This document shows, piece after piece, positions 32,986 through 47,835 of a stretch of 64,000 nt of DNA. Within the stretch, counting starts at the first letter, position 1, and every line of letters begins with the position of its first letter. The DNA is from Actinomyces sp. oral taxon 171 str. F0337. GTDB lineage: Bacteria; Actinomycetota; Actinomycetes; Actinomycetales; Actinomycetaceae. The DNA is taken from the NCBI RefSeq assembly GCF_005696555.1, contig NZ_CP040005.1, positions 558,001 through 622,000 on the forward strand, given 5' to 3'. The translations under genes and the position numbers were made by a program. A model generated the notes under the pieces. The model was not told the DNA's origin, did no database searches, and saw nothing but the letters and a program-made list of their open reading frames with translations.

Positions 32986-34149
32986 TCACTTCGTGGTTGT
33001 CTGAGGTGTGGGGCGGAGGGGGATGGTGAAGATGGTGGTCCAGCGGTCGAGGGTGCGGGTGATGTGGAGGGAGCCGCCTAGGGATTCGATGCGTTGCTGG
33101 GCTTGAATGAGACCGAGCTGGGATGAGGTGGCGATGCTGGTGGGGTGGTCGGGGTCGATGGGGTTGGTGCACATGCACTCGAGGGTGTTGTCGTCGGCCT
33201 CGATGGTGAGGGTGGCGGTGCTGGAGGGGGGTGTGTACTTGGCGGCGTTGTTGATGAGCTCGGCGATGATGCGTACGAGCTGTTGGCGGACGCCAGGGCC
33301 GATGCTGGGGTTGTCGAGCAGGTCGGTGCCCTGGGTGGTCAGGTGGGCGTCTCGGTGCGCGAGGGTTTCCCGGACAGCGCGGATGGTGTCAGTCAGGGGT
33401 GGTGGGGGTGAGGCGGCCAGTAGAAGGAGGGAGTCGTCTCCTTCGGCGGTGCTCATGGCTTTCAGGCTGCGTCGTAGTTGTTCGACGGCGGTGCGTACGG
33501 GGGTGATGATGGCTGCGAGCTGTTGGTTGAGGTGGGTGTTGTGGGGGTCGGCTAGGCGGGCTTGTTCGGCGATCATGACGGCGTGGCTGAGGTCGCGCAC
33601 GACGGTATCGTGAAGCTCGGAGACGACCAGGCGCCGTTGCTGGTCGAGCTTGCGCCGGCGCTCGTGCTCGGCGACGTTGGCCTGGAGGCGGTGATGACGG
33701 ATGACCTCACCGATCACCACGCAAGGAACACCGAAAGTTGCTGTTTGGATTAGCCCTAAATACCACGTTGGTGCTGCTGAGAGGTGTGACAACGTCGTCG
33801 CGAAGGCGAGGACGTAGATCATGTCGCGTCGGAGGCCTCGGCCCAGGAGCATGATGCAAAGCCCCCACGGCAGTACCACGGAAATGCCGCCAAGATCGTA
33901 TGGGGAGTTGGCGGCGAACCAGGCGACAGCCAGGCTTGCGGCTGCTCCTGCGGCGGGAAGCCGGGATGCCAGGGGCAGGCAGGCCAGGCTCATGGAGGTG
34001 ACCAGGAGTGCAGAGGCAGTATGAGGTACTCCCAAGGCCATCGGTGCGATGGTGAGGATGAAGATGGCAACTCCTGCATGGAGCAGGTGGGTGCGTCGCG
34101 TGGGGTGCCATGTGAAGGATGTCTGAGTGTCGAAGGCAAGAAAAGACAT
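32986..34149 (-). CDS. sensor histidine kinase, NarL/DesK type
   Basis: A 387-residue kinase with about five N-terminal membrane helices and no large extracellular domain. Next come a HisKA_3 dimerisation box ELHDTVVRDLSHAV containing the phospho-accepting His, and an HATPase domain with ELINNAAKYTP and later QLGLIQAQQRIESLGG. The ATG at 34149 is chosen because GAGAGCGG precedes it; an ATG 12 codons upstream has poor spacing. It is divergent from its likely partner, the LuxR-type response regulator at 34192. As the two adjoin the defensin operon, control of that operon is a sound inference. Confidence 0.85.
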   Translation of the reverse strand: MSFLAFDTQTSFTWHPTRRTHLLHAGVAIFILTIAPMALGVPHTASALLVTSMSLACLPLASRLPAAGAAASLAVAWFAANSPYDLGGISVVLPWGLCIMLLGRGLRRDMIYVLAFATTLSHLSAAPTWYLGLIQTATFGVPCVVIGEVIRHHRLQANVAEHERRRKLDQQRRLVVSELHDTVVRDLSHAVMIAEQARLADPHNTHLNQQLAAIITPVRTAVEQLRRSLKAMSTAEGDDSLLLLAASPPPPLTDTIRAVRETLAHRDAHLTTQGTDLLDNPSIGPGVRQQLVRIIAELINNAAKYTPPSSTATLTIEADDNTLECMCTNPIDPDHPTSIATSSQLGLIQAQQRIESLGGSLHITRTLDRWTTIFTIPLRPTPQTTTK

Positions 34150-34191
34150 ACGAACCGCTCTCGAGTCGGGCAAACTCAGTATCATTCTTCC

Positions 34192-34863
34192 ATGCGGACA
34201 GATGCTCTCTCGAATAGTTTAAGTGACAACAATAACTCGGAGAAGATCCGGGTCATCGTCGTTGATGACGACCCCTTTGTCTTGCAGGCCCTGAGGGCCT
34301 ACCTGAACGAAGCGCAGGAGATCGAGGTTCTCAGCACTTTCGGGTCTGCAACGGACGCCTTCGGCTTCCTGCGGAACTACCGGGTCGACGTGCTCATCAC
34401 CGATGTGCGGATGCCGGGAATGGACGGTCTTCAGCTCCTCACCAAGGTCAAGCAGGGGATGCCCGAGGTCGCCGTCATCGTCCTCACCTCCTTCGATGAC
34501 GATGAGGCCATGCGGACCGCGCTGGACCGGAAGGCCAACGGCTTCCTGCTCAAGGACTCCTCGGCGGAGGAGGTGATCCGGGCCGTCATCGCCGCCCACA
34601 ACGGCGGAACGACGATCTCCCCGGCCACCACCTCCCGCCTCGTCTCACAGTACCTGCGCCCCGTTCCAAGCTCGCGCCCCGGTGTTACTGAGGCTGAGCA
34701 AGCTGTGCTGGATCTCCTCTGCGAGGGGTACTCCAACGCTGAGATCGCCGACCAGCTCTTCATCTCAGAGGCCACGGTCAAGAGCCACGTTTCCCACCTC
34801 ATGAAGAAGTACGGCGTGTCCTCACGCCTCAAGCTGGTCGTCGCCACTCATCAGGAGAGGTGA
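34192..34863 (+). CDS. NarL/LuxR-type response regulator
   Basis: A 223-residue regulator. The receiver domain has the acidic pair in VIVVDDDPF, phospho-acceptor in LITDVRMPGMDG and the conserved Lys in FLLKDSS. The C-terminal LuxR helix-turn-helix includes LLCEGYSNAEIADQLFISEATVKSHVSHLMKKYG. The start ATG 34192 lies 42 bases from the divergent kinase start and has no strong binding site. A terminator hairpin overlaps the end of the gene. It probably activates the defensin operon and itself; no operator was identified. Confidence 0.88.
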   Translation: MRTDALSNSLSDNNNSEKIRVIVVDDDPFVLQALRAYLNEAQEIEVLSTFGSATDAFGFLRNYRVDVLITDVRMPGMDGLQLLTKVKQGMPEVAVIVLTSFDDDEAMRTALDRKANGFLLKDSSAEEVIRAVIAAHNGGTTISPATTSRLVSQYLRPVPSSRPGVTEAEQAVLDLLCEGYSNAEIADQLFISEATVKSHVSHLMKKYGVSSRLKLVVATHQER

Positions 34864-34887: not shown

Positions 34888-34904
34888 GGCTCCGGTCGGT
34901 TGTG

Positions 34905-36218
34905 TCACCTGGGGAGCCGGAGCGCTCCTGCCCCGTACCAGGTGTTGCCTCCGCCTGTGATGGGTTCGCATGCCAGAGCCTGCTTCTCGCTCGGGCATGA
35001 GATCGGGGTGGCCGACGTCGTCAGCTGCTTCTTGACGTCACCCGCCGGTACTTCGCGAGACCTGAGTTCCGCCGCCGCGGCCGCGACCTGGGGCGCCGCA
35101 AACGAGGTTCCGATCTGGTACCAGTAGTACCTGCAGGAACCCCCTCCTGAGGGGCAGTCGCTCAGGACCTCGTCGGTTCGAGGAGAGCCGTCGTCGTTGA
35201 GCGCGCCTAGCTCACGGAGTCTGTCCGCCGATGCCGTGGTGAGGATCCCCGACCCCGGCCCCTGGACCACGGCACCGCCCGGCCCTGCCAGAGGCGGCTC
35301 GCCCCCGAATGTGACGATGTCGAGTGCAGCGCCCACATTGGAGTAGCTGCTCCGAGCCCCCTTCTCGGTGATGGCCCCAACGGTGATGACGTCGTCGGAC
35401 TGGGCGGGCATGGTGACGCACTGATCGGTGACAGGACGCTCTGCCTGACCGGACCAGCCCGAGCTGTACGGGTCCGATGTGCCGTGGTCGAGATCGTAGG
35501 CCTCGTTGCCGGCGGCGGTTACGAGGACCACCCCGTGATCGGCGGCGTACTTCAGTGCCGAGGTCACCTTCTCCAGGTCGGCCTTCTGCTCTCCCCGCTG
35601 CTCGGCCGTGTCCGCGGGCGCGTTGTCGCAGTAGCGGAACCAGGGGTCGACGGTGAAGCTCATGACGAGGACGCTGAGATGCTCGTCGGCCCCGTACCGG
35701 ATCGCCTGGCTGACGGCGTCGGCGGAGAAAGTGCCCGTCCGGTCCCCGGCCTTGAGACTGACGATCCTGGCCCCCGGAGCGGCCCCGACGATGCCGTGCC
35801 CGTCCACGGCGGCGGCGATGATCCCGGCGACGGAGGTTCCGTGACCGAAGCCGTCATAGGTGGGATCGTCACAGGCGGTGTCTCTGTTGCAGGAGCCCCC
35901 CGACAGGAAGGACTTGCTGCTGGCGGAGTCGTATGCGGCGGCCAGATCGGGGTGGGAGGCGTCGACACCGGTATCGATGATGCCCACGGAGGCGCCTTTG
36001 CCGGTGGAGGGCGAGCCCGGGCGGTTCTGCCAACTGAGGTACCACTGTTTGGACTGGAGGGGATCGCCCGGAAGCAGTGAGCCGTGAGACGATGAGTTGG
36101 CCGAGGCGGCGCCGGCCGTCGTGCTCCCCGCGCCCAGGAGGAGGAACAGCGTAGCGCAGGCGGTCAGTGCCCTCCTGCGAAGATGAGGCGCACAAGCGGG
36201 TGCCACGATGTTCACCAC
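34905..36218 (-). CDS. secreted subtilisin-like serine protease (S8) of the defensin cluster
   Basis: A 437-residue subtilase. The N-terminus has a long signal (LTACATLFLLLGAGSTTAGAAS). Catalytic residues sit in IDTGVD (Asp82), FGHGTSVAG (His126) and IGTSFAAP (Ser372). Extra cysteine pairs suggest a disulfide-stabilised extracellular form; there is no C-terminal membrane anchor of mycosin type. GTG start with GGAGGTGG upstream. It is the last gene of the overlapping operon that begins with the 382-residue gene, and the exporter of that operon lacks its own leader peptidase. Removal of the defensin leader outside the cell is therefore the likely job. Confidence 0.85.
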   Translation of the reverse strand: MVNIVAPACAPHLRRRALTACATLFLLLGAGSTTAGAASANSSSHGSLLPGDPLQSKQWYLSWQNRPGSPSTGKGASVGIIDTGVDASHPDLAAAYDSASSKSFLSGGSCNRDTACDDPTYDGFGHGTSVAGIIAAAVDGHGIVGAAPGARIVSLKAGDRTGTFSADAVSQAIRYGADEHLSVLVMSFTVDPWFRYCDNAPADTAEQRGEQKADLEKVTSALKYAADHGVVLVTAAGNEAYDLDHGTSDPYSSGWSGQAERPVTDQCVTMPAQSDDVITVGAITEKGARSSYSNVGAALDIVTFGGEPPLAGPGGAVVQGPGSGILTTASADRLRELGALNDDGSPRTDEVLSDCPSGGGSCRYYWYQIGTSFAAPQVAAAAAELRSREVPAGDVKKQLTTSATPISCPSEKQALACEPITGGGNTWYGAGALRLPR

Positions 36219-36592
36219 CGGGCCACCTCCTCGTAGAGCTCGCGAACGGGGGCGAGGGTCAGGATCACCGAGCCGTTGTGCTCGATCCAGGACAGGAAGC
36301 CCGCCTCACCGTTGTATGGAGCGCGCTCCCTACCCACGACGAGGTCGACCGTGTGTCCACGACGGCGTGCGGCGGTCACCAGGGCCGCGTCCTTCTCGAT
36401 GTCTCCGGACAGGGCGTCGCCGTGCTTCTCCAGGAGGCCGCGCAGTGCGAGGAGGTCCGCCTCGACCGAGTCGCGGTTCTCCGTGGAGGGCTGATCGGTG
36501 CGGGGAATCCACCCCGTCATTCCGGGCTCGTTCCGGGAGGTCAGCACGGTCTGTATGGAGTCCTTGATGTCGGAGCGCTTGATTCGGTTCAT
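36212..36592 (-). CDS. hypothetical 126-residue protein of the defensin cluster
   Basis: The function is not recognised. The product is hydrophilic, with no signal or membrane segment, and overlaps the start of the protease gene by a few bases. The N-terminal 40 residues (MNRIKRSDIKDSIQTVLTSR, then GMTGWIPRTDQPST) look leader-like or unstructured. The rest is a compact alpha/beta segment ending in ILTLAPVRELYEEVARW. Location and translational coupling tie it to defensin maturation or export. Confidence 0.65.
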   Translation of the reverse strand: MNRIKRSDIKDSIQTVLTSRNEPGMTGWIPRTDQPSTENRDSVEADLLALRGLLEKHGDALSGDIEKDAALVTAARRRGHTVDLVVGRERAPYNGEAGFLSWIEHNGSVILTLAPVRELYEEVARW

Positions 36593-36618
36593 GATGGTGT
36601 TCCTTAGGTCGTGGCTGA

Positions 36619-38607
36619 TTACTGGTGATGGGACTGCTGAGGGGACTGGATGCGCTCACTCATCCAGTTCTCCTCCAGGCGACGGCGATCCACGATCGAC
36701 TGCCGGGAGCTGAAGACGTGGCCCTCGCCGGGGAAGACGGACAGGGTGACGTCGGCGTCGGCGACCAGGAGGTTCTCGTACAGGTGGAGCGACTGCTCGG
36801 GAGTCGTCGCTGAGTTCTCATCGGAGTCCCCGCAGGTCAGCAGGAAGGGGATATCCCGGTGTGCGCGAGTGCTGGGAAGAATGGTCATCATGCTGTATAG
36901 ACTGGGATCGGAGGCGGCGGTGCGCCGGTCGTGCTCGAATCCCGACGGCGTCGCGTACCGGTCGTACGCGCCGCTGCGCAGGAGTACCCCCCTGGGGGAG
37001 GACATGCCGCGCAGCACCGAGACAGCCGCGAGCGCCGCGCCGAAGCTGTGGCCACCCAGGAAAGGCGGGATCGGGGATCTCGGCAGCTCGGCGGTGATTA
37101 CCCCCAGGGCGGCCTCCCAGGCCTGGTGCAGCTCGGCCAGGATGTCCTCTGCGTGGACCTCGGCCAGTGCCTGGTAGTCGATGCCCACCCGCACTACGGG
37201 GCGCGAGCCCGCGTGGCACCACCGGACGCTGTCCGGCTGCAGCGAGCCCAGGTCGATGGGAGCGGGCTCGGAGGCCTCGATCTGCAGTGCCCAGGAGCTG
37301 TCGAACCAGACCAGCGGGACCGATCCGCGTGTCGACTCGGTCAGGGTGATGTCGACCGTACGCTCGGGAAGGACTCGGGTGATAACGGTTCCGGAGACGC
37401 TGCCGGCTGGATCTTCCGATGAGGGGCACCACAAAATGGGGGACGAGGAGGCATGAGGAGCGTCGGTTGCTTCGGCGGTTCCGCCGATTCCTACCAGCCG
37501 GTGGGAGCCGTCGGAGGTGATGACCTGGACATTGTCGTCGGCCCCGCCGGGAAGGAGGCGGTCAATCGGGTTATCGCTGGTCCAGGAGCCCCCGGCCCAC
37601 CGCAGGACGTGGGGTGCACCGAGCGCGACCCATACCCCGGTCAGTCCAGGGATCCCGGTGTAGTGGCTGACGCCGTAGGCGACGGTGGCGACTACCGAAC
37701 CATCCTCGGCGGAGTAGGAGATTGTCTCATCGATAAGGCGCTCGGTGTAGACCACAGCGCTGCGCCCGCCCAGGGGGCGGTGGGCCACCGATCCGCGGGG
37801 CAGATCGCCGATGTGTAATACCGACGACGGCGATGCGCCTTCCCGGTCTTCCCCGTTCTTTCCGTCGTGGAGGTCGACGAGGTAGTGGGGGACATGGTCC
37901 TCCCGCATGAAGGCGGCCAGTTCCTCGGGCGTGCTGGCCACTCCGATGAGGAAGGGGGAGCCGGCCTCGAGGAGGACCACCGAGCCCTGAGGCACCCCGG
38001 GAAGCGGTGCGTCGTCGAGCATGACGGTGCACAGTGAGGAGGTGAAGAACTCCTCCACCAGGGCGTCCGGCCACAGCTCGGCGTCGCCGCTGTGACGAGT
38101 GACGACCTCGGAGGGCTGGTACTCCTGACGCAGCCACACGACGTGGTCCCCGAAGTGCCACAGGCGGGTCGAGCCGGCCGGGTTGGGGCGAAGACCCAGA
38201 AGGGAGCGTGTGCTGATTCCCCACCGGGATGCGGTGGTTCCGACCTCGTCGCAGGCGCTGACCTCGACGCGCCCGTCGTCCTGCCAGGTGGACAGGACCC
38301 AGCCCCGCGGGCCGAAGGGCAGGGGCAGTCCGTCACCGCGCTCGGAGAAGAGGAACGGGTGGCCTGCGTTGACGGTTCCCAGGTAGCCTTGTGGCACCGG
38401 GGAGGAGACGACGTCGCCGGACTGCCGGTCGTAGGCGACCCCCCGGTAGCGGAGCAGGTCCATGCGCGTCCTGGGAGAGGTGCGGAAGACCGGGGCCTCC
38501 AGCACTGCTCGGGTGCCGGTGCGGTGGTCCACCAGCGTGTGGATGCTGAGCCGGTTGAGCCCTTCCCTCTGGTGCTCGATGGGAAGGGTCGTGACCGTCG
38601 CGCTCAT
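36619..38607 (-). CDS. S9-type (prolyl-oligopeptidase-like) hydrolase
   Basis: A 662-residue protein with a beta-propeller-like N-terminal two-thirds and a C-terminal alpha/beta-hydrolase domain. The catalytic set is visible: GGHSFGAAL (Ser521), GDSDEN (Asp594) and GEGHVF (His630). There is no signal peptide, so it acts in the cytoplasm. Prolyl-oligopeptidase relatives cut short peptides, and some ribosomal-peptide clusters use them to trim leaders or degrade cleaved leader. It overlaps the exporter by ATGA. Whether it acts on precursors, on leader fragments or as self-protection cannot be told. Confidence 0.8.
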   Translation of the reverse strand: MSATVTTLPIEHQREGLNRLSIHTLVDHRTGTRAVLEAPVFRTSPRTRMDLLRYRGVAYDRQSGDVVSSPVPQGYLGTVNAGHPFLFSERGDGLPLPFGPRGWVLSTWQDDGRVEVSACDEVGTTASRWGISTRSLLGLRPNPAGSTRLWHFGDHVVWLRQEYQPSEVVTRHSGDAELWPDALVEEFFTSSLCTVMLDDAPLPGVPQGSVVLLEAGSPFLIGVASTPEELAAFMREDHVPHYLVDLHDGKNGEDREGASPSSVLHIGDLPRGSVAHRPLGGRSAVVYTERLIDETISYSAEDGSVVATVAYGVSHYTGIPGLTGVWVALGAPHVLRWAGGSWTSDNPIDRLLPGGADDNVQVITSDGSHRLVGIGGTAEATDAPHASSSPILWCPSSEDPAGSVSGTVITRVLPERTVDITLTESTRGSVPLVWFDSSWALQIEASEPAPIDLGSLQPDSVRWCHAGSRPVVRVGIDYQALAEVHAEDILAELHQAWEAALGVITAELPRSPIPPFLGGHSFGAALAAVSVLRGMSSPRGVLLRSGAYDRYATPSGFEHDRRTAASDPSLYSMMTILPSTRAHRDIPFLLTCGDSDENSATTPEQSLHLYENLLVADADVTLSVFPGEGHVFSSRQSIVDRRRLEENWMSERIQSPQQSHHQ

Positions 38608-40358
38608 GCGAGCACTCCTTTCTCTACGCGAGCGAGGGTTGGTGTGGGCACCTCGCGGAGCCTGCCGAGCTCCATGCGGTAGGCCCGGTCGGTCATGGCG
38701 AAGAGGCGGGCGTCGTGGGTGGTGACGACGATGCAGTGATCGCGTTTGAGGTCGAGCAGCGTGGCGATGAGACGGTCAGTGGACTCGTCGTCGAGGGCTG
38801 CTGTGGGCTCATCGAGCAGGAGCACTCGCGGGTTGAGGGCGAGGGTTCGGGCGATCGCCAGGCGGGCGCGCTCTCCGCCGCTGATGCGTGCCCCGCGTTC
38901 CCCGAGCATCGTGCTCGTCCCGGAGCGGTCCCCCAGATGGGACAGATCGAGTCCGACTCGGCTGCACAGCTCGTGGACTCTGGCCTCGCTGATGCCGGGG
39001 CAGACCGCCTCGAAGTTCTCCTTCAGGGTGCTGCTGCGGAAGAATGGCTCCTGGGGGCAGTACTGAACGATGCTGTTCCAGGCCTCTGTACCGGTGACGA
39101 CGGGCGAGAACCCGGCGACGGTGATACTGCCCTGTGAGGGGTGGTTGGCCCCGGCGATCAGGCTGAGGAGGGTCGACTTCCCACTTCCGGACGGGCCGAC
39201 GATGGCGACGATCTCTCCGCACCGGGCGGTGAGGCTGACCGAGTCCAGAAGCACGGTGCTGCTCGTCCCGTTGGCGACCGAGTAATCGGTCTCCCTGACC
39301 AGGAGCGCTCCGCCGTTGGGGACGTCGACCGGTACCGGGGGAGTCTCGTACCACTCCTCCTGGGACTCAAGGAAGTCGCTCACGCGAGACAGCGCGGACC
39401 ATGACGTCGCCAGGCCCGTGCGGACCCCGGACGCTGCCTGGAGCGGGCCGTAGAGCTGGGGCGTGAGAGCGGCCAGGGCGGCCAGCGCCCCGGGAGTCAT
39501 GTCCCCCTGGACCACGGAGTATCCGCCGATGATGAGCACGGCCACGGTTCCCAGGGCACCGACGAGGTCCAGTGATGAGGAGAAGGCGCTGTCGAGGGTG
39601 ATCATGCGGGTGTAGGAGGCGCGTACACCGGCGGCCGTCTCCTCGGCCCGACGCCGGTCCGAGGGGATGTCGGCCGCTGTGCGGGAGAAGAGGTGACCGG
39701 TGACGCCGACGCGCTCCACCACGGTGCCGCTGAAGGCTGACATGGCGTCGAGCATGCGGTCGGTCGTGGCGCTGAGCGTCCGTGAGACCCGCTCCGTGGG
39801 CAGGGCCAGGATCAGTGCCAGTGCGAGGACCACCAGGGTGATCGTGAAGGACCGGGTCCACATGATGCTCAGCAGGATCCCCAGTCGGGCGATGAGGCCA
39901 AGGGCCTGCGGCAGAATAGTGGACACGAAGGTCTGGGCCTGCGCGGTGTCATTGGTGATCCGTGAGAGCAGGGAGCCTCCCGGCGCCGCGCTGACGGTGG
40001 ATGAGGACAATCGGGTCAGTTTGTTGAGCATGAGGATCCGCAGGCGCTCCTGGAAGCGCTGCCCGGTGAATGCGGTCATGCGTTGCGAGGCCACGCTGAC
40101 CGCCGTGCTGGCGACTGCGGCGCCGGCGGCCAGAAGGCCCGGTAGGAGAATGCCCGCCGTCGTTGGGTTCTGGGTCAGTCTGTCGATGATGCGCTGGAGC
40201 ATCAACGGAGAGATGGTGTCCAGGGTTGCCTGGACGGCAAGGAGGAGCGCCGCGATGATAATGGAGGGGGCGGAGGTTCGTAGCGCCCGGCCGCATGACG
40301 ACGCCAGGACGCGTCGCGCGGAGCTCAGGCCTGAAGGGCGAGCTGCCGAGTGCGCCAT
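38604..40358 (-). CDS. ABC exporter, fused permease and ATPase
   Basis: A 584-residue half-transporter: six membrane helices in the first 320 residues, then an ATPase with Walker A VGPSGSGKST, signature ISGGERARLA and Walker B VLLLDEPTAALDD. There is no N-terminal C39 peptidase domain, unlike classic bacteriocin exporters, so leaders must be removed by another enzyme. The ATG at 40358 is preferred since GGGAGGTG lies upstream; it overlaps the end of the MauE-like gene by 34 bases. Export of defensin precursors is the obvious proposal. Confidence 0.87.
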   Translation of the reverse strand: MAHSAARPSGLSSARRVLASSCGRALRTSAPSIIIAALLLAVQATLDTISPLMLQRIIDRLTQNPTTAGILLPGLLAAGAAVASTAVSVASQRMTAFTGQRFQERLRILMLNKLTRLSSSTVSAAPGGSLLSRITNDTAQAQTFVSTILPQALGLIARLGILLSIMWTRSFTITLVVLALALILALPTERVSRTLSATTDRMLDAMSAFSGTVVERVGVTGHLFSRTAADIPSDRRRAEETAAGVRASYTRMITLDSAFSSSLDLVGALGTVAVLIIGGYSVVQGDMTPGALAALAALTPQLYGPLQAASGVRTGLATSWSALSRVSDFLESQEEWYETPPVPVDVPNGGALLVRETDYSVANGTSSTVLLDSVSLTARCGEIVAIVGPSGSGKSTLLSLIAGANHPSQGSITVAGFSPVVTGTEAWNSIVQYCPQEPFFRSSTLKENFEAVCPGISEARVHELCSRVGLDLSHLGDRSGTSTMLGERGARISGGERARLAIARTLALNPRVLLLDEPTAALDDESTDRLIATLLDLKRDHCIVVTTHDARLFAMTDRAYRMELGRLREVPTPTLARVEKGVLA

Positions 40359-41116
40359 GACTGAAGCACCTCCCTGCACTCACGTAGGCCTGACTGGACG
40401 TGGGCGTCGGACGGGTCGGCGGAGCTCATCGAGACGACGGCGGGATAGGCGGAGACATCGACTCCTGCCTCGCGGAGCGAGGTGGCCTGTTCGGAGTCGC
40501 GGTCCACCCAGAGAATGGTCCCGTCGAGCTCGGAGTCGTCGACATCGTGGTTCTCTATCACCTTGAGCGCCGAGCACGCCGTGCAGGTCGGAGACAGGAC
40601 GATGAGGAGCTGATCGTGATGCGCGTCGTCTACCGCGGTGCGGCTCAGCCGGTTCCACAGCTGCATGGCGGCGGTCATCACAACGGCCGATACCAGGGCG
40701 ATCACCAGGCGAAGGGGCCGGGGGCTCGTGATCTCCTCGCTGCTGACAGTGCTGGCCAGCAGGGCGGCAGCGGTGAAGACGCAGCCCCAGATGTGGGCGG
40801 GACCGACTTTCATGCCCTCGATGCCGAAGCAGCCGCACTCCTGGCCCTTGAGCGTCGTGGCCCCGACCACGAATCCGACGTAGATAACGGCGAGTAGGAG
40901 GGAGGCGGCTCGATAGCTCGCAACGGCCAGCGCCATAGCGGACACGACGATCTCAGCGGCGATGACGAAGTTGCTGGAGAGATGGAAGCGCAGGAAGTTC
41001 GCCCCCTCGGGCCAGGCGAGGCGGGTGCGGGCGGCCGCCCAGATCTTGGCTCCCGCCGTCCCCAGGAGGACTCCGGTCGCTCCTCCGGTGAGCAGTGTGA
41101 CGAATAGGCTGTTCAT
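40325..41116 (-). CDS. MauE-like membrane protein fused to a thioredoxin-like domain
   Basis: A 263-residue protein. The N-terminal 155 residues form four membrane helices of the MauE/DoxX type with the hallmark GQECGCFG (Cys94, Cys96). The C-terminal 100 residues resemble thioredoxin, beginning QLLIVLSPTCTACSALK with a CxxC at Cys178-Cys181 and a later cis-Pro-like AYPAV. MauE proteins help form disulfides in methylamine dehydrogenase. In a cluster making three-disulfide peptides, a dedicated oxidase or isomerase is a strong inference. AGGAGAGG precedes the ATG, which overlaps the previous stop. Confidence 0.82.
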   Translation of the reverse strand: MNSLFVTLLTGGATGVLLGTAGAKIWAAARTRLAWPEGANFLRFHLSSNFVIAAEIVVSAMALAVASYRAASLLLAVIYVGFVVGATTLKGQECGCFGIEGMKVGPAHIWGCVFTAAALLASTVSSEEITSPRPLRLVIALVSAVVMTAAMQLWNRLSRTAVDDAHHDQLLIVLSPTCTACSALKVIENHDVDDSELDGTILWVDRDSEQATSLREAGVDVSAYPAVVSMSSADPSDAHVQSGLRECREVLQSWRTRQLALQA

Positions 41117-41358
41117 AATGACCTCTCCTGAGCATTGATGGTGGAATCTGAATCGATGATGATGCCGGACTCAATAGCGGACTCGATAAGTGGGGAAAGC
41201 GGGGCAGGGCTGGTGGAATGGAGGGCCTCATCAAGGAGGGACCCGTTCTCCTCATCCAGCTCATGGACGGAGAGGCGATGGAGGTCGGCGAGTGTCCATC
41301 CCCCGTTCTCCAGGTGTGTCAGGGTCATTCCGTCAGCGAGCCTCCAGCGCTCAGCCAT
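41113..41358 (-). CDS. hypothetical 81-residue protein of the defensin cluster
   Basis: Not recognised. It begins MAERWRLADGMTLTHLENGG, has WTLADLHRLSVHELDEE and ends with an acidic, polar tail. No signal or membrane segment. AAGGTGGGTGACCTC before ATG 41358 decides the start. It overlaps the 382-residue gene by 34 bases and the MauE-like gene by ATGA. Size and composition would suit a leader-binding or chaperone-like protein, but this is only a guess. Confidence 0.65.
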   Translation of the reverse strand: MAERWRLADGMTLTHLENGGWTLADLHRLSVHELDEENGSLLDEALHSTSPAPLSPLIESAIESGIIIDSDSTINAQERSL

Positions 41359-42473
41359 GAGGTCACCCACCTTTCTGTCTCTACGGTTTTCTTGACGTCC
41401 AGTGCGTACTTCTGGCGAAGGAAAGGGTCTTTTCCGATCAAAGTCATTCCGTCGATGTCGATGCAGCCTTGGGCGGCGAGGGAGCCGTCGGCCAGTTCCT
41501 CCTGCCAGGAGGGCCACAGCTCGGCGGCCTCCTTGACGGCTCGCAGCCGGGCTGCGGCGTGGTCGTTGACGGGCTCCTTACCGAATCTGCGGAACAGTGC
41601 GGCGTCGTGGGTGCGAATGCCGTTCCGGACCTCCATGGAGCGCTGCTCAACAGGAACCTGGGCGAAGGCGCCGACAACGTCTGGGTCATGGGCTGGGCGG
41701 TACAGCGAGTCCGATGACGACGATGAGTCGCTGGAGACTGTCCACAGGAGTTGGGCCGCCCGCGGTGGGAGTCCCTTGAGGGCCTCCTCCCACGAGGACA
41801 GTGACACGATCCTTGCGACATCGATCATCTGAATGGCGTCAATGCTGAGCCATTGTGGGTCTGGCTCCACGATGACTGGTTCCGAGTCCTCCGAGGCGTG
41901 CTCGTGCTCAGGCTCGTGTGAGTCCGACTTATCCTTCTTGGACAGTAGCCGATGGAAGAAGCCCCCGCCTTGGGAATCCTTCTTCGCCTCACTCGGAATG
42001 GAGCCGATGAGGTCCCGAATGCCCCGTGCGTCGATGTCGTTCGCCTCGGTCTCAGATGGTGCGGAGTCACCGTCCGGAGCGGGCACCGTGAGAGCATTGA
42101 GATAGCGCAGGATGATGTCGTCAACGGGCATTGATGCCGAGGAGAAGTGGGTGGCAGAGGTGTTCCGGCGCAGGGCCTGGGTCAGTACCTCTTCGGCGGC
42201 CTCGAGGCTGATGACGCCGGTGCTGTACTGCTCGGGCTGCAGGGTCTGAATAGAGTCGTTGGTGAGTCGCGTTCCGGGAGCCTTGTGAAGGACCTCGGTG
42301 AAGAGCGACTGTCCGAAGGGCGGCCTGACGTCCGCGATGCGGGCGAGGACGAACCGGAGCGAGGCGGACGTGTGCCTGGCTGCGAGCGTGGACTCATCAA
42401 CCTGCTCCCAGGTTCCTGCGCTGTTGATGAGTAGTTGGTTTCTGTTGACCCAAGGCGTATCGTGAAGACTCAT
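41325..42473 (-). CDS. hypothetical 382-residue protein, first gene of the defensin maturation operon
   Basis: Not recognised. The product is soluble, with no signal peptide; residues about 145-200 are charged and low-complexity (KKDSQGGGFFHRLLSKKDKS, then a Glu/His-rich run). The flanking parts look globular and the C-terminus is Trp-rich. The sequence before its ATG, AAGGTACACACCA, nearly copies that of two defensin genes (AAAGGAACACACCA), so it shares their translational control. It is the closest gene downstream of the defensins and may handle the precursor. Confidence 0.65.
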   Translation of the reverse strand: MSLHDTPWVNRNQLLINSAGTWEQVDESTLAARHTSASLRFVLARIADVRPPFGQSLFTEVLHKAPGTRLTNDSIQTLQPEQYSTGVISLEAAEEVLTQALRRNTSATHFSSASMPVDDIILRYLNALTVPAPDGDSAPSETEANDIDARGIRDLIGSIPSEAKKDSQGGGFFHRLLSKKDKSDSHEPEHEHASEDSEPVIVEPDPQWLSIDAIQMIDVARIVSLSSWEEALKGLPPRAAQLLWTVSSDSSSSSDSLYRPAHDPDVVGAFAQVPVEQRSMEVRNGIRTHDAALFRRFGKEPVNDHAAARLRAVKEAAELWPSWQEELADGSLAAQGCIDIDGMTLIGKDPFLRQKYALDVKKTVETERWVTSWLSAGGSLTE

Positions 42474-42510
42474 TGGTGTGTACCTTGATCTGGGGGACTG
42501 GATTGAGGGC

Positions 42511-42552
42511 GGGGCCTGCCCTGCGCCGCTGCTACGGTGCGGGACAGGCCCC
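42511..42552 (-). terminator. hairpin after defensin gene 1
   Basis: Arms GGGGCCTGCCC and GGGACAGGCCCC pair with one bulged base. The hairpin lies between the first defensin gene and the maturation operon with no T-tract, so it more likely acts as a partial attenuator or 3'-end stabiliser than a full stop. Confidence 0.5.
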
Positions 42553-42566
42553 GTGTTACGTCTGGA

Positions 42567-42767
42567 TCAGTAGCAGTGGCAGGTCTGGCGGATCTTGCCG
42601 CGGCAGTTTCCACCGGTGTATCCCTTGCTGACGCAATGGCGGTCGCACTCGTAGGCGTTCCAGGGGCAGCCGAAGCCCTCGGCCCCCTCGATGGGGGCGT
42701 GGGTTTCGGCGTTGAGGGCCTTGTCGGCGTCGACCAGGTTAGCGGTGCGGCGGGTGAACTTGTCCAT
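42567..42767 (-). CDS. defensin-like antimicrobial peptide precursor 1
   Basis: A 66-residue precursor: a 30-residue leader (MDKFTRRTANLVDADKALNA, then ETHAPIEGAE) and a predicted 36-residue mature peptide starting GFGCPWNAYECDRHC. Six cysteines follow C-x6-C-x3-C-x9-C-x7-C-x-C, the CSalpha-beta defensin pattern, with a GGNC gamma-core and CHCY end. The GFGC start and CxCY end recall plectasin and the Actinomyces defensin actifensin, which bind lipid II or act on Gram-positive walls. AAAGGA precedes the ATG by eight bases. Gene, 5' and 3' flanks form a module duplicated at defensin gene 3. Confidence 0.9.
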   Translation of the reverse strand: MDKFTRRTANLVDADKALNAETHAPIEGAEGFGCPWNAYECDRHCVSKGYTGGNCRGKIRQTCHCY

Positions 42768-42820
42768 TGGTGTGTTCCTTTCTGGTGGTCCTCCCCGGGC
42801 GGTTCCCGTGGGAGGTTGTG

Positions 42821-42868
42821 AGGTGCGCGGGTGAATGTGTCTGCGCACCTTCCCCGGATTGGGGGAAG
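42821..42868 (-). promoter_or_regulatory. structured 5' leader of defensin gene 1
   Basis: Two overlapping hairpins are possible: AGGTGCGC (42821-42828) with GCGCACCT (42843-42850), and CTTCCCC (42849-42855) with GGGGAAG (42862-42868). They share bases, so they could be alternatives. The second is conserved at defensin gene 3 (43756-43775). Confidence 0.45.
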
Positions 42869-42967
42869 CCTGTGATGCGATGCTGGCGGCACCGGGATGC
42901 CGGAGTCACTCGCAAGAAAGATGATTCAGATGGTGTGGTCCTGTGCGCTGCAATATCGCTGATTGAG

Positions 42968-43171
42968 TTAGTAACAGCGGCAGGAGGTCTTGAGTATTCC
43001 TCCGCAGTAGCCGCCCCGGTATCCGGAGTACCTGCAGTGACGGTCGCACGGAGACTCGTCAGTAGGGCAGTTGTATTCTGCTCCCTCGGTGGGTGTATGT
43101 GTCTCTGAATGAAGGGCCTGCTCAAATGTCACATCCGCAAGAGCGGTGGATCGGCGAACAAAATGAGGCAT
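42968..43171 (-). CDS. defensin-like antimicrobial peptide precursor 2
   Basis: A 67-residue precursor with leader MPHFVRRSTALADVTFEQAL plus HSETHTPTEGAE, and a predicted 35-residue peptide starting YNCPTDESPCDRHC. The six cysteines keep the exact spacing of the other copies, with GGYC core and CRCY end. The leader shares the ET-x2-P-x-EG-x-E ending. AAAGGATCACCCC precedes the ATG. A perfect hairpin (CTCGCAC/GTGCGAG, 43194-43212) lies in the 5' leader. This copy is the most diverged at DNA level from copies 1 and 3, so it is an older paralogue. Confidence 0.9.
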   Translation of the reverse strand: MPHFVRRSTALADVTFEQALHSETHTPTEGAEYNCPTDESPCDRHCRYSGYRGGYCGGILKTSCRCY

Positions 43172-43193
43172 GGGGTGATCCTTTTGTCATCTC

Positions 43194-43212
43194 TCGCACA
43201 GGTAGTGCGAGA
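43194..43212 (-). promoter_or_regulatory. 5' leader hairpin of defensin gene 2
   Basis: Seven-base perfect arms with a five-base loop (AGGTA), just upstream of the ribosome binding site. A TACACT sequence some 15 bases further upstream could be a -10 element. Confidence 0.4.
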
Positions 43213-43373
43213 CGTTAGTGTAAGCAGTAATGTCTTCGCCTTGCCTTGGCTGATATGAGAAGATTACGGGGATGCCTATCTGGAGGAAATTCTCCGAAGA
43301 GCGGTATTTATGGGAGCGAGTCCTCCCTAAGGATGACTTTCTATCTGATGTGAGAGGGTTGGGAAGGAAAATG

Positions 43374-43406
43374 TGGGCTGCTAGATGTTCAGCATCTGGC
43401 AGCCCA
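43374..43406 (-). terminator. terminator after defensin gene 3
   Basis: Stem TGGGCTGC/GCAGCCCA with an inner AGATG/CATCT pairing, followed on the minus strand by CATTTTCC. It is a plausible rho-independent terminator. Confidence 0.65.
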
Positions 43407-43467
43407 CGCTCGGGGCCCGTCCTTTATCGCAGCTACGGTGCGGGACGGGTCGCGAGTTGTGTCTGGA

Positions 43468-43674
43468 TCAGTAGCAGTGACACACGAGCTTGATGGGGCC
43501 GGCGCAATAGCCTCCCCTGTAACCGTGACTAAGGCAGTGGCGGTTACATACGGATGGGGCCCAGGGGCAGCTAAGGTCTTCGGTGCCCTCGATGGGGGCC
43601 TGGGTCTCGGAGCTGACGGCCTGGCTGAAGTCGCTGTCGCTCAGGGTGGTGGTGCGGCGGGTGAACTTGTCCAT
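43468..43674 (-). CDS. defensin-like antimicrobial peptide precursor 3
   Basis: A 68-residue precursor: leader MDKFTRRTTTLSDSDFSQAV plus SSETQAPIEGTE, predicted mature peptide of 36 residues starting DLSCPWAPSVCNRHC, with GGYC core and CHCY end. Cysteine spacing is identical to copies 1, 2 and 4. The leader, ribosome binding site (AAAGGAACACGCCA), 5' leader hairpin and 3' flank closely match copy 1, so copies 1 and 3 come from a tandem duplication of about 350 bases. The mature parts have diverged much more than the leaders, suggesting selection for different targets. Confidence 0.9.
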   Translation of the reverse strand: MDKFTRRTTTLSDSDFSQAVSSETQAPIEGTEDLSCPWAPSVCNRHCLSHGYRGGYCAGPIKLVCHCY

Positions 43675-43755
43675 TGGCGTGTTCCTTTCTGGTGGTCTCC
43701 CTGGATGATTCCTTTGGGAGGCTGTGGGGGTGTGCGGGTGAGTGCGTCCGGGCAC

Positions 43756-43775
43756 CTTCCCCGGACTGGGGGAAG
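43756..43775 (-). promoter_or_regulatory. 5' leader hairpin of defensin gene 3
   Basis: CTTCCCC and GGGGAAG around a short loop, the counterpart of the hairpin at 42849-42868. The conservation of this element in both duplicates, about 80 bases before the start, suggests a regulatory role. Confidence 0.45.
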
Positions 43776-43946
43776 ACTGTGATGTGGTGTCTGAGTCTGC
43801 GTTGTGCATGTATCTGCCGCCGAGTTGGTGTCACTCTATGGGGGTGGCTCGCACAGAAATACTCACCGAAGGTAGGAAATATTCCTTCCTGTCATCCGTG
43901 AGGGGGTGAGATGCTCTTCGAGGTGTCGAGTATGGTCAGTATGTGG

Positions 43947-43988
43947 CGTGCGGGGCCGCTTCCAAATGTCTGGAAGCGGCCCCGCACG
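43947..43988 (-). terminator. very strong hairpin after defensin gene 4
   Basis: A perfect 18-base stem (arms 43947-43964 and 43971-43988) with a six-base loop, starting ten bases after the stop codon of defensin 4. No T-tract follows, but its strength suggests termination or protection of the 3' end. Confidence 0.7.
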
Positions 43989-43997
43989 TGATGGGAG

Positions 43998-44204
43998 TTA
44001 GTGGCAGCGGCAGGTGGCGGCAGCGAATCCTCCGCAGAACCCTCCGCGATATCCTTTGCTCAAGCAGTGGTTGTGGCACTGATGTTCGTTGAAAGGGCAG
44101 GCGAAGCAGTCGCTTGTTTCGAGAGGGCTGCGGGTCTCGGCGTTCATGGCGTCATTGAATCTGCTATCGTTCAATGATTTGCGGCGCCGGGAGAACATGT
44201 CCAT
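43998..44204 (-). CDS. defensin-like antimicrobial peptide precursor 4, seven-cysteine variant
   Basis: A 68-residue precursor beginning MDMFSRRRKSLNDSRF, with leader end ETRSPLETSD and predicted mature part starting CFACPFNEHQCHNHC. Core spacing is the same as the others, with GGFC and CRCH. It differs by a seventh cysteine two residues before the usual first one and by a final His in place of Tyr. ATG 44204 is favoured because it aligns with the other leaders; ATG 44222, six codons earlier, lacks a binding site and both have weak ones. An unpaired cysteine would allow dimers, an alternative disulfide or modification. Confidence 0.87.
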   Translation of the reverse strand: MDMFSRRRKSLNDSRFNDAMNAETRSPLETSDCFACPFNEHQCHNHCLSKGYRGGFCGGFAAATCRCH

Positions 44205-44290
44205 GTAGATCTTCTTCTTCATGTGAGTTCTGTGTGGGGTGAGGAAGCTGTCATCGGATGTGGGTGTGTTTCCGAGTCTTCGGTATGTGA

Positions 44291-46771
44291 TCAGTCCTCT
44301 GCGAGCGCCATGACCGGCGGCACCGAGGCTGCCCGTCCGGCCGGGCGCAGTGAGGCCAGCAGGCCGACGGCCAGGGTCGCGGCGAACATGCCGATCAGCG
44401 CGAGGTAGGGGATGTGCACAGACATACCCTTAGCGGCCCCTCCCGCCGCAACCGTGCCTGCTGTGCCGAGGAACATTCCGATGAGGAGACCGAGGCTCCC
44501 CCCCACGGCCGCCAGGAGGGTCCCCTCGGTGACGATGAGGCGCCGGATCTCCTGGCGGGAGCTGCCGGTGGCGCGTAGAACCCCGATCTCTCGAATGCGT
44601 TCCAGAACTGAGACGTCCGTGGTGTTGGCCAGCCCGGACAGGGCGATGACGAGGGCGGCCCCCAGAACCAGGCAGACGATGAGGGCCATCCTCGTGATGA
44701 TGGATGACATCTGCTCACTTGCGGCGGCGCTACCGGCCACCATCAGAGCCTGACCTCGGACAGCCGCATTGAGGGCGTGCTCGGTATCGGATGTCATGGA
44801 ATTGCCGGTGGACCGAACCCACATGGTGGTGTTGGTAGGGGTATTGCCGTTGATGCGCTGAGCCACTGCCGGGCTGATGGCGGCGCCCCAGCCCTCCTGG
44901 ACGCGGGCCGTCAGCTCAACGCTGTCGGCAGCGCCGGTCAGGGTGACTGTGGCGCCATCTGGAATGTTATAGATGCCGCCCACAATGAGGGTCTTGTCAT
45001 TGAGGTCTTCCAAGCCGCTGGTGGACCGTGCGATCGGCGCGATAGTGCCGGTGTCGATGACGTCGACAGTAATGTCCTTCGACTTTCCATCGATGGTCTG
45101 GGTCAGGCCGAGGGAGGGAACGTAGGTGACGTCCTTGACCCCGTCGACTGCTTTGACCTGCTTCGTCAGCTGCGCGGTATCGGTTTGCGGTGTGACTCCG
45201 AAGATTCTGGCGTCCACTGGTGAGCTGTGGCCGAGGATGGCGTCGAAGGAGGCGTTCAAGGAGGACAGGCCGACGAAGAGTGCTGACCCCACTAGGACGC
45301 AGACGAAAAGTGTGGCTGCGGTCGCGGCGGACCGTCCGGAGTTGCGGGCCAGGTTCCGGGTAGCCAGGCGCAGGACCGGGAATCGCGCGTCACCACTGAT
45401 TCTGCCGATGAATCCGATGATGACGGTGACGAGCAGCGGAAGGCCGAGGATCGCGCCGAGGGTGACGACGGCGCTCCCGCATGCTGTGATGAAGATATCG
45501 GATGCCTGAACGCCGAGGGCGACCGCGGCCGCACCGATGACGGCAATGATGGCTCCGGCGACGGCGCTCCACATCCGCCTGCGTCCGGCCTGCTTGGTGC
45601 TCGCAACCTGCCCGGTGAGAGCCACGAGCGGTGAGATGCGGGTGGCTGTGCGCGCAGGGCGCAGGACGGCGATGAGGGTGACCAGCGTCCCCAAGGCGAC
45701 GGTGAGCCCAAGGGACACCGGCGAGATGGTGAGCTGATCGGCCTTGAGGTCCGCGAAGGTTCCCGAGGACACCTCGATGGCACCGATACCGGTTCCGAGT
45801 GCCGCGCCCAGGACGGAGCCGACCACACCCGTCATGAGTCCGGTGCGCAGCACGGCGAGCATCACCTGACGGCGGGTTGTGCCGATGCAGCGCATGAGGC
45901 CGACCATGCGCGTCTGGCGCGCCACCAGCGTGCTGAAGGTGGTGGCGATCACGATGATGGCGACCGCCGCGCAGACCGGGGACAGGAGGTTGAGGATGGT
46001 TGAGATGATCGTCCCTCCTAATTCTGCTTTAGCTCGCTGAGAGATGGCCTCGTCCGCGCTCTGGATGACGGCGGAGGGCTGGGTAGAGTGAATGATTTCG
46101 GACACATTCCTCATCAATGAACTGGTATCAGTTCCAGGTTTGGCGCTGACGTAGAGCCTGTAGTAATTGATTCTGGCTCCCATCGCTTGGAGCTGCTCGG
46201 CGGTGGCGTAGAGGGTGCCGGTGCCGGTGTCCTTGCTGTCGGCCCCGGCGGAGATGATGCCGACCACCGTGGGAGCCGAGTGGACGGCCTTAGCGTTGTC
46301 GTTGTCCTTGGTTGTGAGGCGGATGGTGTCGCCGACGCTCAGGCCCTGCTGCTCGGCGAGGTCGGAGTCGATGGCCACCTCACCGGTGGCGGTGGGGAGC
46401 CGGCCGCTGCTCAGGGTGGTGAACTTGGTGAGCGCCGGGACGTCCTGGACGGCGACCTGGGCTCCGACGGCGCTTAGCTGCTTGGGCAGGTCGAGCCACA
46501 GCATGTCCCAGTGGGCACCACGGACGGAGCTGACACCGTCAAGGGCGGAGACCCGGTTGAGGAGGGAGTCGTCCAGGGCGCCTTCCGTGCTGTTGGCTCT
46601 ACGACCGTCTTGGACGACGACGTCGGCGTCGCCTACGGACACCCGCGCGCTGGTCTGCGTTTGCGTGCGGAAGGAGTCGGAGATGATGAAGGCGAAGGCG
46701 ATGAGGGCGGCGCTCATGGCCACGGCCACGAGGGCGGCCGCGGTGCGCCGTAGGTCGAGGAGGGACGGCAT
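44291..46771 (-). CDS. ABC transporter permease, FtsX/MacB type (probable defensin immunity)
   Basis: An 826-residue permease of the two-unit type. An N-terminal helix and large extracellular domain are followed by three helices, then a second extracellular domain and three more helices near the C-terminus. The start at 46771 overlaps the ATPase stop by ATGA and follows GGAGGCCCGCTG; a much longer upstream extension of the frame is a Pro/His/Arg-rich shadow of the ATPase gene. FtsX-type transporters commonly remove cell-envelope antibiotics or sense them. Lying directly upstream of four defensin genes, it probably gives self-immunity, perhaps also signalling. Confidence 0.85.
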   Translation of the reverse strand: MPSLLDLRRTAAALVAVAMSAALIAFAFIISDSFRTQTQTSARVSVGDADVVVQDGRRANSTEGALDDSLLNRVSALDGVSSVRGAHWDMLWLDLPKQLSAVGAQVAVQDVPALTKFTTLSSGRLPTATGEVAIDSDLAEQQGLSVGDTIRLTTKDNDNAKAVHSAPTVVGIISAGADSKDTGTGTLYATAEQLQAMGARINYYRLYVSAKPGTDTSSLMRNVSEIIHSTQPSAVIQSADEAISQRAKAELGGTIISTILNLLSPVCAAVAIIVIATTFSTLVARQTRMVGLMRCIGTTRRQVMLAVLRTGLMTGVVGSVLGAALGTGIGAIEVSSGTFADLKADQLTISPVSLGLTVALGTLVTLIAVLRPARTATRISPLVALTGQVASTKQAGRRRMWSAVAGAIIAVIGAAAVALGVQASDIFITACGSAVVTLGAILGLPLLVTVIIGFIGRISGDARFPVLRLATRNLARNSGRSAATAATLFVCVLVGSALFVGLSSLNASFDAILGHSSPVDARIFGVTPQTDTAQLTKQVKAVDGVKDVTYVPSLGLTQTIDGKSKDITVDVIDTGTIAPIARSTSGLEDLNDKTLIVGGIYNIPDGATVTLTGAADSVELTARVQEGWGAAISPAVAQRINGNTPTNTTMWVRSTGNSMTSDTEHALNAAVRGQALMVAGSAAASEQMSSIITRMALIVCLVLGAALVIALSGLANTTDVSVLERIREIGVLRATGSSRQEIRRLIVTEGTLLAAVGGSLGLLIGMFLGTAGTVAAGGAAKGMSVHIPYLALIGMFAATLAVGLLASLRPAGRAASVPPVMALAED

Positions 46772-47835
46772 CAGCGGGCCTCCATTCCAGTGGCGTAGGG
46801 GCTGCCGAAGCCGAACATCTGGGTTGCGCTGGGAGGCGCGGCATGGCGTGCACTGTAGACCGCGGCGGGACCAGGAGTGGGGGCGACGGGGGTGGTGCTC
46901 GCCCCGGAGGTGCGGCGGGGCTCTGGTGCGCTCGCCGGGGTGATGGCCCGGCGAGCCGGCGTGGGGCGGCCCGGGGCTGTGACGGCGTCGAATCCCGTAG
47001 TGGGGCCGGCCGGGATTGTCGGTGTCGTCGTCGGTGGTGCGGGCGGAGCTGCCTGGGTGGGAGCGGCGGGTGTCTGCTGGGCCGGGCGGGCGGTCGGTGC
47101 GGTGTGGGTGCCGGGGGTGTGGTGGACGGTGTCGTCGTTGGTGATGCGTCCGTCGCGTAGGCGGATGATGCGGTTGGTGGTGGCTGCGGCTTGTTCGTCG
47201 TGGGTGACCATGACGACGGTCTGGCCCAGGGTCTGGCACATGTGGGCGAGGGTCTGTAGCAGGTTGGCGGCTGAGGCGGTGTCCAGGGCGCCGGTGGGTT
47301 CGTCGGCGAAGATGACTTTGGGGCGTCCCACGAGGGCGCGGGCTACGGCCACGCGCTGTTGCTGGCCGCCGGAGAGCTCGTTGGGGCGGTGGGATAGGCG
47401 GTCGGTGAGACCTAGGACTGAGATGACGGCGTCGTACCAGTCTCGGGCTGGTTTGCGGTGGGCCAGGCGCTGGGGCAGGAGGATATTCTCCTCGGCGGTC
47501 AGGGTGGGCAGCAGGTTGAAGGATTGGAAGATGAAGCCGAGCTGGTCGCGGCGTACGGCGGTGAGCTGCTTGTCCTTCATACCTGACAGGTCCTGTCCGG
47601 CGATGAAGACGCTGCCGGAGGTGGGGGTGTCCAGGCCCGCCAGGCAGTGCAGGAGGGTGGACTTGCCTGAGCCGGAGGGGCCCATGATGGCCGCGAACTC
47701 TCCTTCGGTGATGGTGAGGCTGACCGTGTCCAGGGCCACGACCTGGGCTTCGCCCTCGCCATAGATCTTGCTTAGCGCGCGGGCCTCAACCACCTTGTTG
47801 ACGGTGGGACTGATGTGTGGAATCTGGTGCGGCAT
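46771..47835 (-). CDS. ABC transporter ATP-binding protein, MacB/LolD type with long tail
   Basis: A 354-residue ATPase paired with the FtsX-like permease. Walker A GPSGSGKST, Q-loop FIFQSFNLLP, signature LSGGQQQRVAVARAL and Walker B VIFADEPTGALD are intact within the first 235 residues. About 115 extra Pro/Thr/Ala-rich residues follow, ending with FGFGSPYATGMEAR, which is unusual for the family and may be disordered. The start ATG 47835 has AAGAGAAG upstream. It is probably transcribed with the permease and perhaps through the defensin genes. Confidence 0.87.
   Translation of the reverse strand: MPHQIPHISPTVNKVVEARALSKIYGEGEAQVVALDTVSLTITEGEFAAIMGPSGSGKSTLLHCLAGLDTPTSGSVFIAGQDLSGMKDKQLTAVRRDQLGFIFQSFNLLPTLTAEENILLPQRLAHRKPARDWYDAVISVLGLTDRLSHRPNELSGGQQQRVAVARALVGRPKVIFADEPTGALDTASAANLLQTLAHMCQTLGQTVVMVTHDEQAAATTNRIIRLRDGRITNDDTVHHTPGTHTAPTARPAQQTPAAPTQAAPPAPPTTTPTIPAGPTTGFDAVTAPGRPTPARRAITPASAPEPRRTSGASTTPVAPTPGPAAVYSARHAAPPSATQMFGFGSPYATGMEAR

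Follow-up and report, generated by a model that had tools for sequence, protein, structure and literature searches.

Four adjacent defensin precursor genes

Actinomyces sp. oral taxon 171 str. F0337 carries four adjacent defensin precursor genes, D1 to D4, in the stretch of DNA analyzed here (contig NZ_CP040005.1, positions 558,001 to 622,000; 64,000 nt at full length, hereafter the window, to which all coordinates refer). The defensin fold is chiefly associated with animals, plants, and fungi. We examined the four genes, the helper genes around them, and a structured 5' leader RNA that precedes two of the precursors. The locus is very probably a multi-copy bacteriocin locus of the actifensin/actinodefensin type, a known kind of locus whose maturation machinery and leader RNA are under-described. 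The precursor genes are as follows.

42567..42767, minus strand: D1 defensin precursor, 66 residues; mature part GFGCPWNAYECDRHCVSKGYTGGNCRGKIRQTCHCY, which is actinomycesin (AMSIN)
42968..43171, minus strand: D2 defensin precursor, 67 residues; EGAE cleavage region
43468..43674, minus strand: D3 defensin precursor, 68 residues; EGTE cleavage region
43998..44204, minus strand: D4 defensin precursor, 68 residues; ETSD cleavage region; adjoins a permease gene

The four minus-strand precursors had been proposed in a first-pass annotation of the DNA, and direct reading of the open reading frames bears them out. The genes (42567-44204) are flanked by an ATP-binding cassette (ABC) permease gene and a 382-residue gene, AfnI, and an upstream ATG at 44222 is a possible alternative start of D4. 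Each precursor consists of a leader of 30-32 residues and a mature part of 35-36 residues, and the leaders end in EGAE (D1 and D2), EGTE (D3), or ETSD (D4), that is, in a G-x-E motif or in its TS form. All four mature parts show the annotated spacing C-x6-C-x3-C-x9-C-x7-C-x-C with a GG-x-C core and a CxCY or CxCH end, and all four contain the six conserved cysteines with C-x3-C, G-Y-x-G-G-x-C, and C-x-C. The description of the products as six-cysteine peptides holds for this spacing in each of them, but it overlooked a seventh cysteine in the mature part of D4 (CFACPF...). The leaders had also been called conserved, which overstates the case, as they are 37-67% identical among D1-D4 compared with 44-54% for the mature parts.

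A search against defensin profiles had been suggested, and all four precursors pass it. The Pfam Defensin_2 E values are 3.8e-11 (D1), 9.5e-10 (D2), 1.1e-11 (D3), and 2.3e-8 (D4, scanned from 44222), all past the cut-off, and the scores for NCBIfam NF038042 ('actinodefensin') are 97.6 (D1, scanned without its first residue), 103.8 (D2), 108.3 (D3), and 91.9 bits (D4), compared with a cut-off of 65. Because the scores for both families are past the cut-offs, the resemblance is not due to chance. In the F0337 genome (3.10 Mb, one contig), the NF038042 model matches D1-D4 only, and a D3 query finds D1-D4 and one weak match with an internal stop (E 0.08, 34% identity). The available part of PMC6989792 gives seven copies for F0337, compared with the four in the locus read here. 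The mature part of D1 is identical in 36 of 36 residues to actinomycesin in PDB entry 2RU0, which establishes the cysteine-stabilized alpha-beta (CS-alpha-beta) fold for D1, while the same fold is predicted for D2-D4 from their Defensin_2 matches. The identity of D1 with a structure determined by nuclear magnetic resonance (NMR), together with related Actinomyces clusters that have the same helper genes, supports the original reading of D1-D4 as bacterial actifensin-like defensins with the CS-alpha-beta fold.

At the peptide level, the family, the fold, the target, and multi-copy arrays are already known. Actinomycesin was described from F0337 itself, with an NMR structure of the CS-alpha-beta fold (PMC8819291; this paper and the three others below are cited for the parts available to us), and it is a closer bacterial precedent than actifensin, which had been named as the closest. 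The same paper reports clustered paralogues between ABC transporter genes, copy-number variation, and the paralogue AMSIN-1, which has an additional N-terminal cysteine, its seventh, and was modelled as a dimer; the locus shares with this system the mature sequence of D1, clustered paralogues beside ABC transporter genes, and the D4-type seventh cysteine. The array had been presented as unusual, but PMC6989792 counts 37 and later 47 homologues, with operons of as many as seven copies, and reports conserved helper genes. Actifensin of Actinomyces ruminicola DPC7226 (PMC6989792) has the same precursor family, the same helper genes, and the GA/TS leader variants, of which the TS variant is described there, whereas it is encoded by a single gene and the window holds four.

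Across the genus set (49 genomes, F0337 included), actinodefensins occur in 10 genomes, in agreement with the expectation that related precursors exist in other Actinomyces. The NF038042 model gives 27 matches past the cut-off and three pieces below it, and direct reading of the loci gives 27 precursors as well (24 of them begin with ATG and are free of masked bases), at one to six copies per genome. The spacing of D1-D4 is ordinary for this family, in which C1 and C2 are separated by 6 residues in 21 of 27 precursors, and C4 and C5 by 7 in 22, 8 in three, and 5 in two. Actifensin has 5 residues between C4 and C5, compared with 7 in D1-D4. The C6 defensin motif quoted in the available part of PMC6989792, with a C4-C5 spacing of 4-5, does not fit any of the four. 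Since a spacing of 7 is shared by D1-D4, most of the genus precursors, and actinomycesin, the motif with 4-5 residues does not define the bacterial family.

Over the 24 complete genus precursors, the mean identity is 56.9% for the leader and 51.3% for the mature part, and in 165 of 276 pairs the leader is the more similar part; for precursors of the MDKF type (10 rows), the leaders are 74.7% identical and the mature parts 55.8%. D2 is 92.5% identical to a precursor in another locus, L053. Precursors with a seventh cysteine occur in four genomes and adjoin the permease gene in all four, and their mature parts are 92-100% identical between genomes, far above the all-pair mean. The four copies lie at 43998-44204 in the window, 710-916 in locus L048, 10291-10497 in L052, and 7443-7649 in L053.

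Helper genes and their conservation

The published operon layout, with afnB-I downstream of the precursors and ABC transporter genes upstream, is also found here. The genes are listed below in window order.

32986..34185, minus strand: sensor histidine kinase beside AfnB (PF02518, PF07730); matched in 7 of 9 other clusters
34021..34863, plus strand: AfnB, LuxR-type response regulator (PF00072 and PF00196); bounds of the open reading frame, true start probably further in
34905..36218, minus strand: AfnC, subtilisin-like S8 protease, mycosin-like (PF00082, E 1.2e-39; TIGR03921 under its cut-off)
36212..36592, minus strand: AfnD, 126 residues, no Pfam match; present in 9 of 9 other clusters
36619..38607, minus strand: AfnE, S9/prolyl-oligopeptidase-like hydrolase (PF00326, 34.1 bits, cut-off 22.6)
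38604..40361, minus strand: AfnF, ABC exporter with membrane and ATPase domains (PF00664, PF00005); candidate peptide exporter
40325..41116, minus strand: AfnG, MauE-like membrane domain and thioredoxin-like C-terminus; candidate disulfide-forming enzyme
41113..41358, minus strand: AfnH, 81 residues; NF038044 (actinodefensin-associated protein B), 86.3 bits, cut-off 45
41325..42473, minus strand: AfnI; NF038043 (actinodefensin-associated protein A), 659 bits, cut-off 250; probable relative of the C-terminal part of lasso cyclase C and Asn synthetase
44291..46789, minus strand: AfnJ, MacB/FtsX-type ABC permease (PF02687)
46771..47835, minus strand: AfnK, ABC ATPase (PF00005)

The proteins of the locus are thus members of NF038042, NF038043, and NF038044 past the curated cut-offs; the family names for proteins A and B state no function, and afnG-I appear in the available part of PMC6989792 as hypothetical genes of unknown function. 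The list of open reading frames holds no second permease (AfnL of the actifensin locus) beside AfnK, and no dedicated search for one was made.

The cluster is conserved as a unit. AfnI, H, G, F, E, D, C, and J are present in all nine other actinodefensin genomes, the regulator in eight, and the kinase in seven, where the two unmatched kinases would fall past contig ends; the locus is spread over two contigs in genomes G014 and G020, and AfnE is divided into two pieces in G015 and G028. The 10 of 49 genus genomes that match NF038044 (AfnH) are precisely those with actinodefensins, and in the family set of 213 genomes NF038043 (AfnI) passes its cut-off only in these 10. The histidine kinase (region 32986-34863) is conserved, yet it lies outside the afnB-L list in the available part of PMC6989792.

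The presence of a kinase/regulator pair within the cluster could mean that the main role of the peptides is to signal to the neighboring kinase and not to act as weapons. We consider this very unlikely, because both actifensin and AMSIN act against bacteria and bind precursors of the wall, namely lipid II with a dissociation constant of ~30 nM for actifensin (PMC12284004) and a soluble wall precursor standing in for lipid II for AMSIN (PMC8819291), and because positive selection on surface sites has been reported (PMC8819291).

One genome, G005, has a broken version of the locus. A leader RNA is followed by a precursor start that runs into unrelated sequence (L115, 8072-8300), and a fragment from the rear of a defensin core, with four cysteines, is found 5 kb off (L115, 13182-13250). 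AfnI, H, G, and F were not found in this 20-kb stretch, and the genome scans gave no match to NF038042-NF038044, while J, K, E, D, C, the regulator, and the kinase are kept. The coincidence of a broken precursor with the missing genes suggests that I-H-G-F is tied to peptide production. This divides the locus into a production half (I-H-G-F) and a half able to persist alone, so that J and K are candidates for self-protection.

A structured 5' leader RNA before D1 and D3

D1 and D3 have in common a leader of ~112 bases that reaches up to the start codon. The leaders and the repeats near the precursor genes are as follows.

42765..42878, minus strand: D1 structured 5' leader RNA; hairpins CTTCCCC..GGGGAAG and GGTGCGC..GCGCACC and a third hairpin; ends at the start codon
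43672..43785, minus strand: D3 structured 5' leader RNA
42510..42553, no strand assigned: inverted repeat after D1, 19 bp, 84%
43411-43482: 72-nt repeat after D3, related to the repeat after D1
43947..43988, no strand assigned: inverted repeat after D4, perfect over 18 bp with a 6-nt loop; possible terminator or processing hairpin, with no clear T run

A covariance model of the leader, R1, was built on an alignment of 11 leaders and scores 118.9 bits for D1 and 109.6 bits for D3, and the two scores are not independent of the model, which includes both. The leader is absent from D2 and D4. In the genus scan, R1 matches 10 of 49 genomes, among them G005, and in seven of the other nine genomes with actinodefensins a leader precedes precursor genes; G015 and G048 have no R1 match despite their actinodefensins. 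A weak match in G047 (E 0.0024), counted among the 10, is taken as chance. The first hairpin, as the pattern CTTCCCC-N4-8-GGGGAAG, occurs in 13 of the 49 genomes, including eight of the 10 with actinodefensins, and in the F0337 genome it is found only in the leaders of D1 and D3.

Folding and pairing support a conserved RNA structure in part. Of nine leaders folded one by one, out of the 11, seven have z scores of -2.6 to -7.1 (D1, -3.8), while two (D3, -1.25; one other, -1.41) fold no better than shuffles. The share of paired cells across 13 distinct rows is 95.4%, compared with 39-61% when the alignment is slid and a mean of 93.5% in shuffles (5 of 500 reach the observed value), in counts that cover the first two hairpins only and are flattered by the fitting of the rows to the model. 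Two pairs of the leader are changed on both sides, with a covariation score reached by none of 500 shuffles, whereas the number of pairs changed on both sides (reached by 141 of 500 shuffles) and the number of further pair types (168 of 500) do not stand out.

The first hairpin is nearly invariant, with five of its six pairs constant in the 13 rows, as a protein-binding sequence would be, and taken alone it could be a DNA operator. With a two-component system in the same cluster, it is a real possibility, if clearly short of an even one, that CTTCCCC-N-GGGGAAG is an operator for AfnB and no part of an RNA leader; both observations count against the RNA reading. In favor of RNA, the spacer length of this hairpin ranges over 4-7 bases among the copies that precede precursor genes, base changes in the second hairpin leave its pairing intact, the pairing over all helices far exceeds that of slid alignments, and most of the singly folded leaders beat their shuffles.

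Searches with general models add little here. Rfam contains no family matching positions 32000-48000, and a promoter and terminator scan gave one promoter (0.4 expected by chance) and two terminators (1.7 expected by chance), nothing usable, with the repeat after D4 uncalled. A 16-nt copy of the surroundings of the defensin start codon (CATTGGTGTGTACCTT, plus strand) lies at 42471-42486, at the start of AfnI, so that AfnI has its ribosome-binding context in common with D1 and D3.

The first-pass annotation had proposed that one machinery could produce a mixed defensin cocktail, and the single set of helper genes fits this idea. Because only two of the four genes have the leader RNA, however, D1-D4 may not be expressed together.

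AfnI, AfnH, and AfnG and a possible route of maturation

Lasso-peptide clusters typically have the order A-C-B1-B2-D. The locus shares the order precursor, C-like gene, B1-like gene, and then ABC exporter. For comparison, PF13471 (the B2 leader protease) was found in 31 of 297 genomes; 12 loci were examined, and we used the six in which a protein with the ATP-binding motif SGGxDS adjoins B2 on the same strand, leaving out five that lack SGGxDS and one that has it on the opposite strand. When 35 AfnI rows are combined into a profile, HHalign aligns it with the six lasso C proteins over 161 C-terminal columns (probability 87.8%, E 3.3e-6, score 54.3). In the controls, none of 100 column shuffles exceeds 25.0, and the best score among nine other families of the same cluster is 21.6 against lasso C and 19.2 against AfnI. 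A weak, collinear alignment joins the first 140 residues of AfnI to an earlier part of C (24.4; shuffles at most 22.4). The match thus goes beyond chance, and the profiles indicate that AfnI is a diverged, shrunken relative of lasso cyclase C. For AfnH, a lasso B1 entry ranks first, weakly, in both fold searches on the model, which weakly suggests the B1 leader-binding fold, similar to a recognition element of ribosomally synthesized and post-translationally modified peptides (RiPPs).

The locus differs from lasso clusters in several respects. SGGxDS is absent from all 35 AfnI rows, so that AfnI does not qualify as a lasso-cluster C protein; no B2 match was found in the F0337 genome at E <=0.001 (14 of 19 candidates scored), and a MauE/CxxC protein, AfnG, stands at the place of B2. 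The product here is a disulfide-bonded defensin.

A number of results weigh against the lasso relation. None of the 35 AfnI rows has a synthetase match in Pfam or NCBIfam, or any sequence match in the PDB; the structure model of AfnI was unusable (predicted local distance difference test, 46.6), which makes its fold search meaningless; the sequence comparison of AfnH with B1 gave nothing decisive; and AfnF and the lasso exporters do not form a clear group. The last result comes from a 19-row tree that did not resolve the grouping (3 of 22 rows were dropped, two of them AfnK frames; it held nine of 10 AfnF and an ABC row from three of the six lasso loci), and the candidacy of AfnF as a lasso exporter was set aside. 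In addition, a review places actifensin in class II, without enzymatic modification (PMC7616364). On these grounds, the lasso likeness of AfnI and AfnH could be meaningless, and the peptides could be plain class II bacteriocins that are exported, oxidized, and cut with no leader-guided processing. We regard this as rather unlikely given the AfnI score, which is more than twice that of any control, the first, if weak, rank of B1 in both AfnH searches, and the precursor-C-B1 gene order.

The homology of AfnI to a macrolactam-forming enzyme could also mean that AfnI and AfnH still modify some peptides covalently, for example by a lactam, so that the products are not merely disulfide-bonded. This is extremely improbable, as the missing SGGxDS motif speaks against catalysis and the native mass of actifensin is accounted for by a loss of 6 Da alone (PMC6989792).

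AfnG (263 residues) scores 26.7 bits for MauE, just below the cut-off of 27, with the motif QECGCFG in its membrane part and SPTCTACS (SPTC-x-ACS, a CxxC motif) in its C-terminal part. Both motifs, QECGCFG and CxxC, are present in nine of nine AfnG relatives displayed. Six relatives were scanned for MauE, and four have E values below 0.01, one has 0.49, and one has no match, none of them past the cut-off; a thioredoxin profile gives E 0.31 in one relative only. A natural reading of such a protein beside genes for three-disulfide peptides is that AfnG is a candidate dedicated disulfide former. A literature search that fell short of most subscription literature found nothing in print on a leader RNA with actifensin, a MauE protein with actifensin, or a relation of AfnI and AfnH to lasso machinery.

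A more far-reaching reading, with a probability of roughly 0.35, is that actinodefensins are RiPP-like and made by a refitted lasso machinery, in which AfnH and a catalytically dead AfnI would form a leader-guided chaperone or delivery pair, AfnG would be the disulfide former, and a new class of three-hairpin leader RNA would gate some of the paralogues but not all. The present data themselves establish the family of the precursors, the identity of D1, the conservation of the cluster and of the leader, and the relation of AfnI to lasso C. We infer the maturation, immunity, and regulatory roles, while the fold, the disulfides, and the binding of lipid II (actifensin) or a wall precursor (AMSIN) were shown by others for relatives and may apply here by analogy. 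In the likely scheme for the locus, expression would be set by two-component signalling through AfnB and its kinase and, in the case of D1 and D3, also by the 5' leader RNA. AfnH, with its putative leader-binding fold, and AfnI, as a non-catalytic relative of lasso cyclase C, would recognize the leaders and hold them in the cell, AfnF would export the precursor, and AfnG would drive formation of the three disulfides and, in D4, possibly of an extra intermolecular one. AfnC and/or AfnE would cut the leader off after an acidic residue, and AfnJK would give the producer self-protection. A cut at that residue and three disulfides would give calculated average masses of 4065.5 (D1), 3979.4 (D2), 3961.5 (D3), and 3928.4 Da (D4), and a D4 dimer linked through the seventh cysteine would weigh about double. 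The mature peptides would then bind lipid II and stop wall synthesis in Gram-positive competitors. The roles assigned to AfnH, AfnI, and AfnG are tentative, at somewhat less than even odds.

The peptides themselves add little to what is known, and the interest of the locus lies in its machinery. If these defensins are made by refitted lasso proteins, the boundary between unmodified class II bacteriocins and RiPPs would be wrong for this group, and the AfnI/AfnH/AfnG set could aid the production of disulfide-rich peptides in bacteria. The leader RNA offers a testable handle on the timing of each paralogue.

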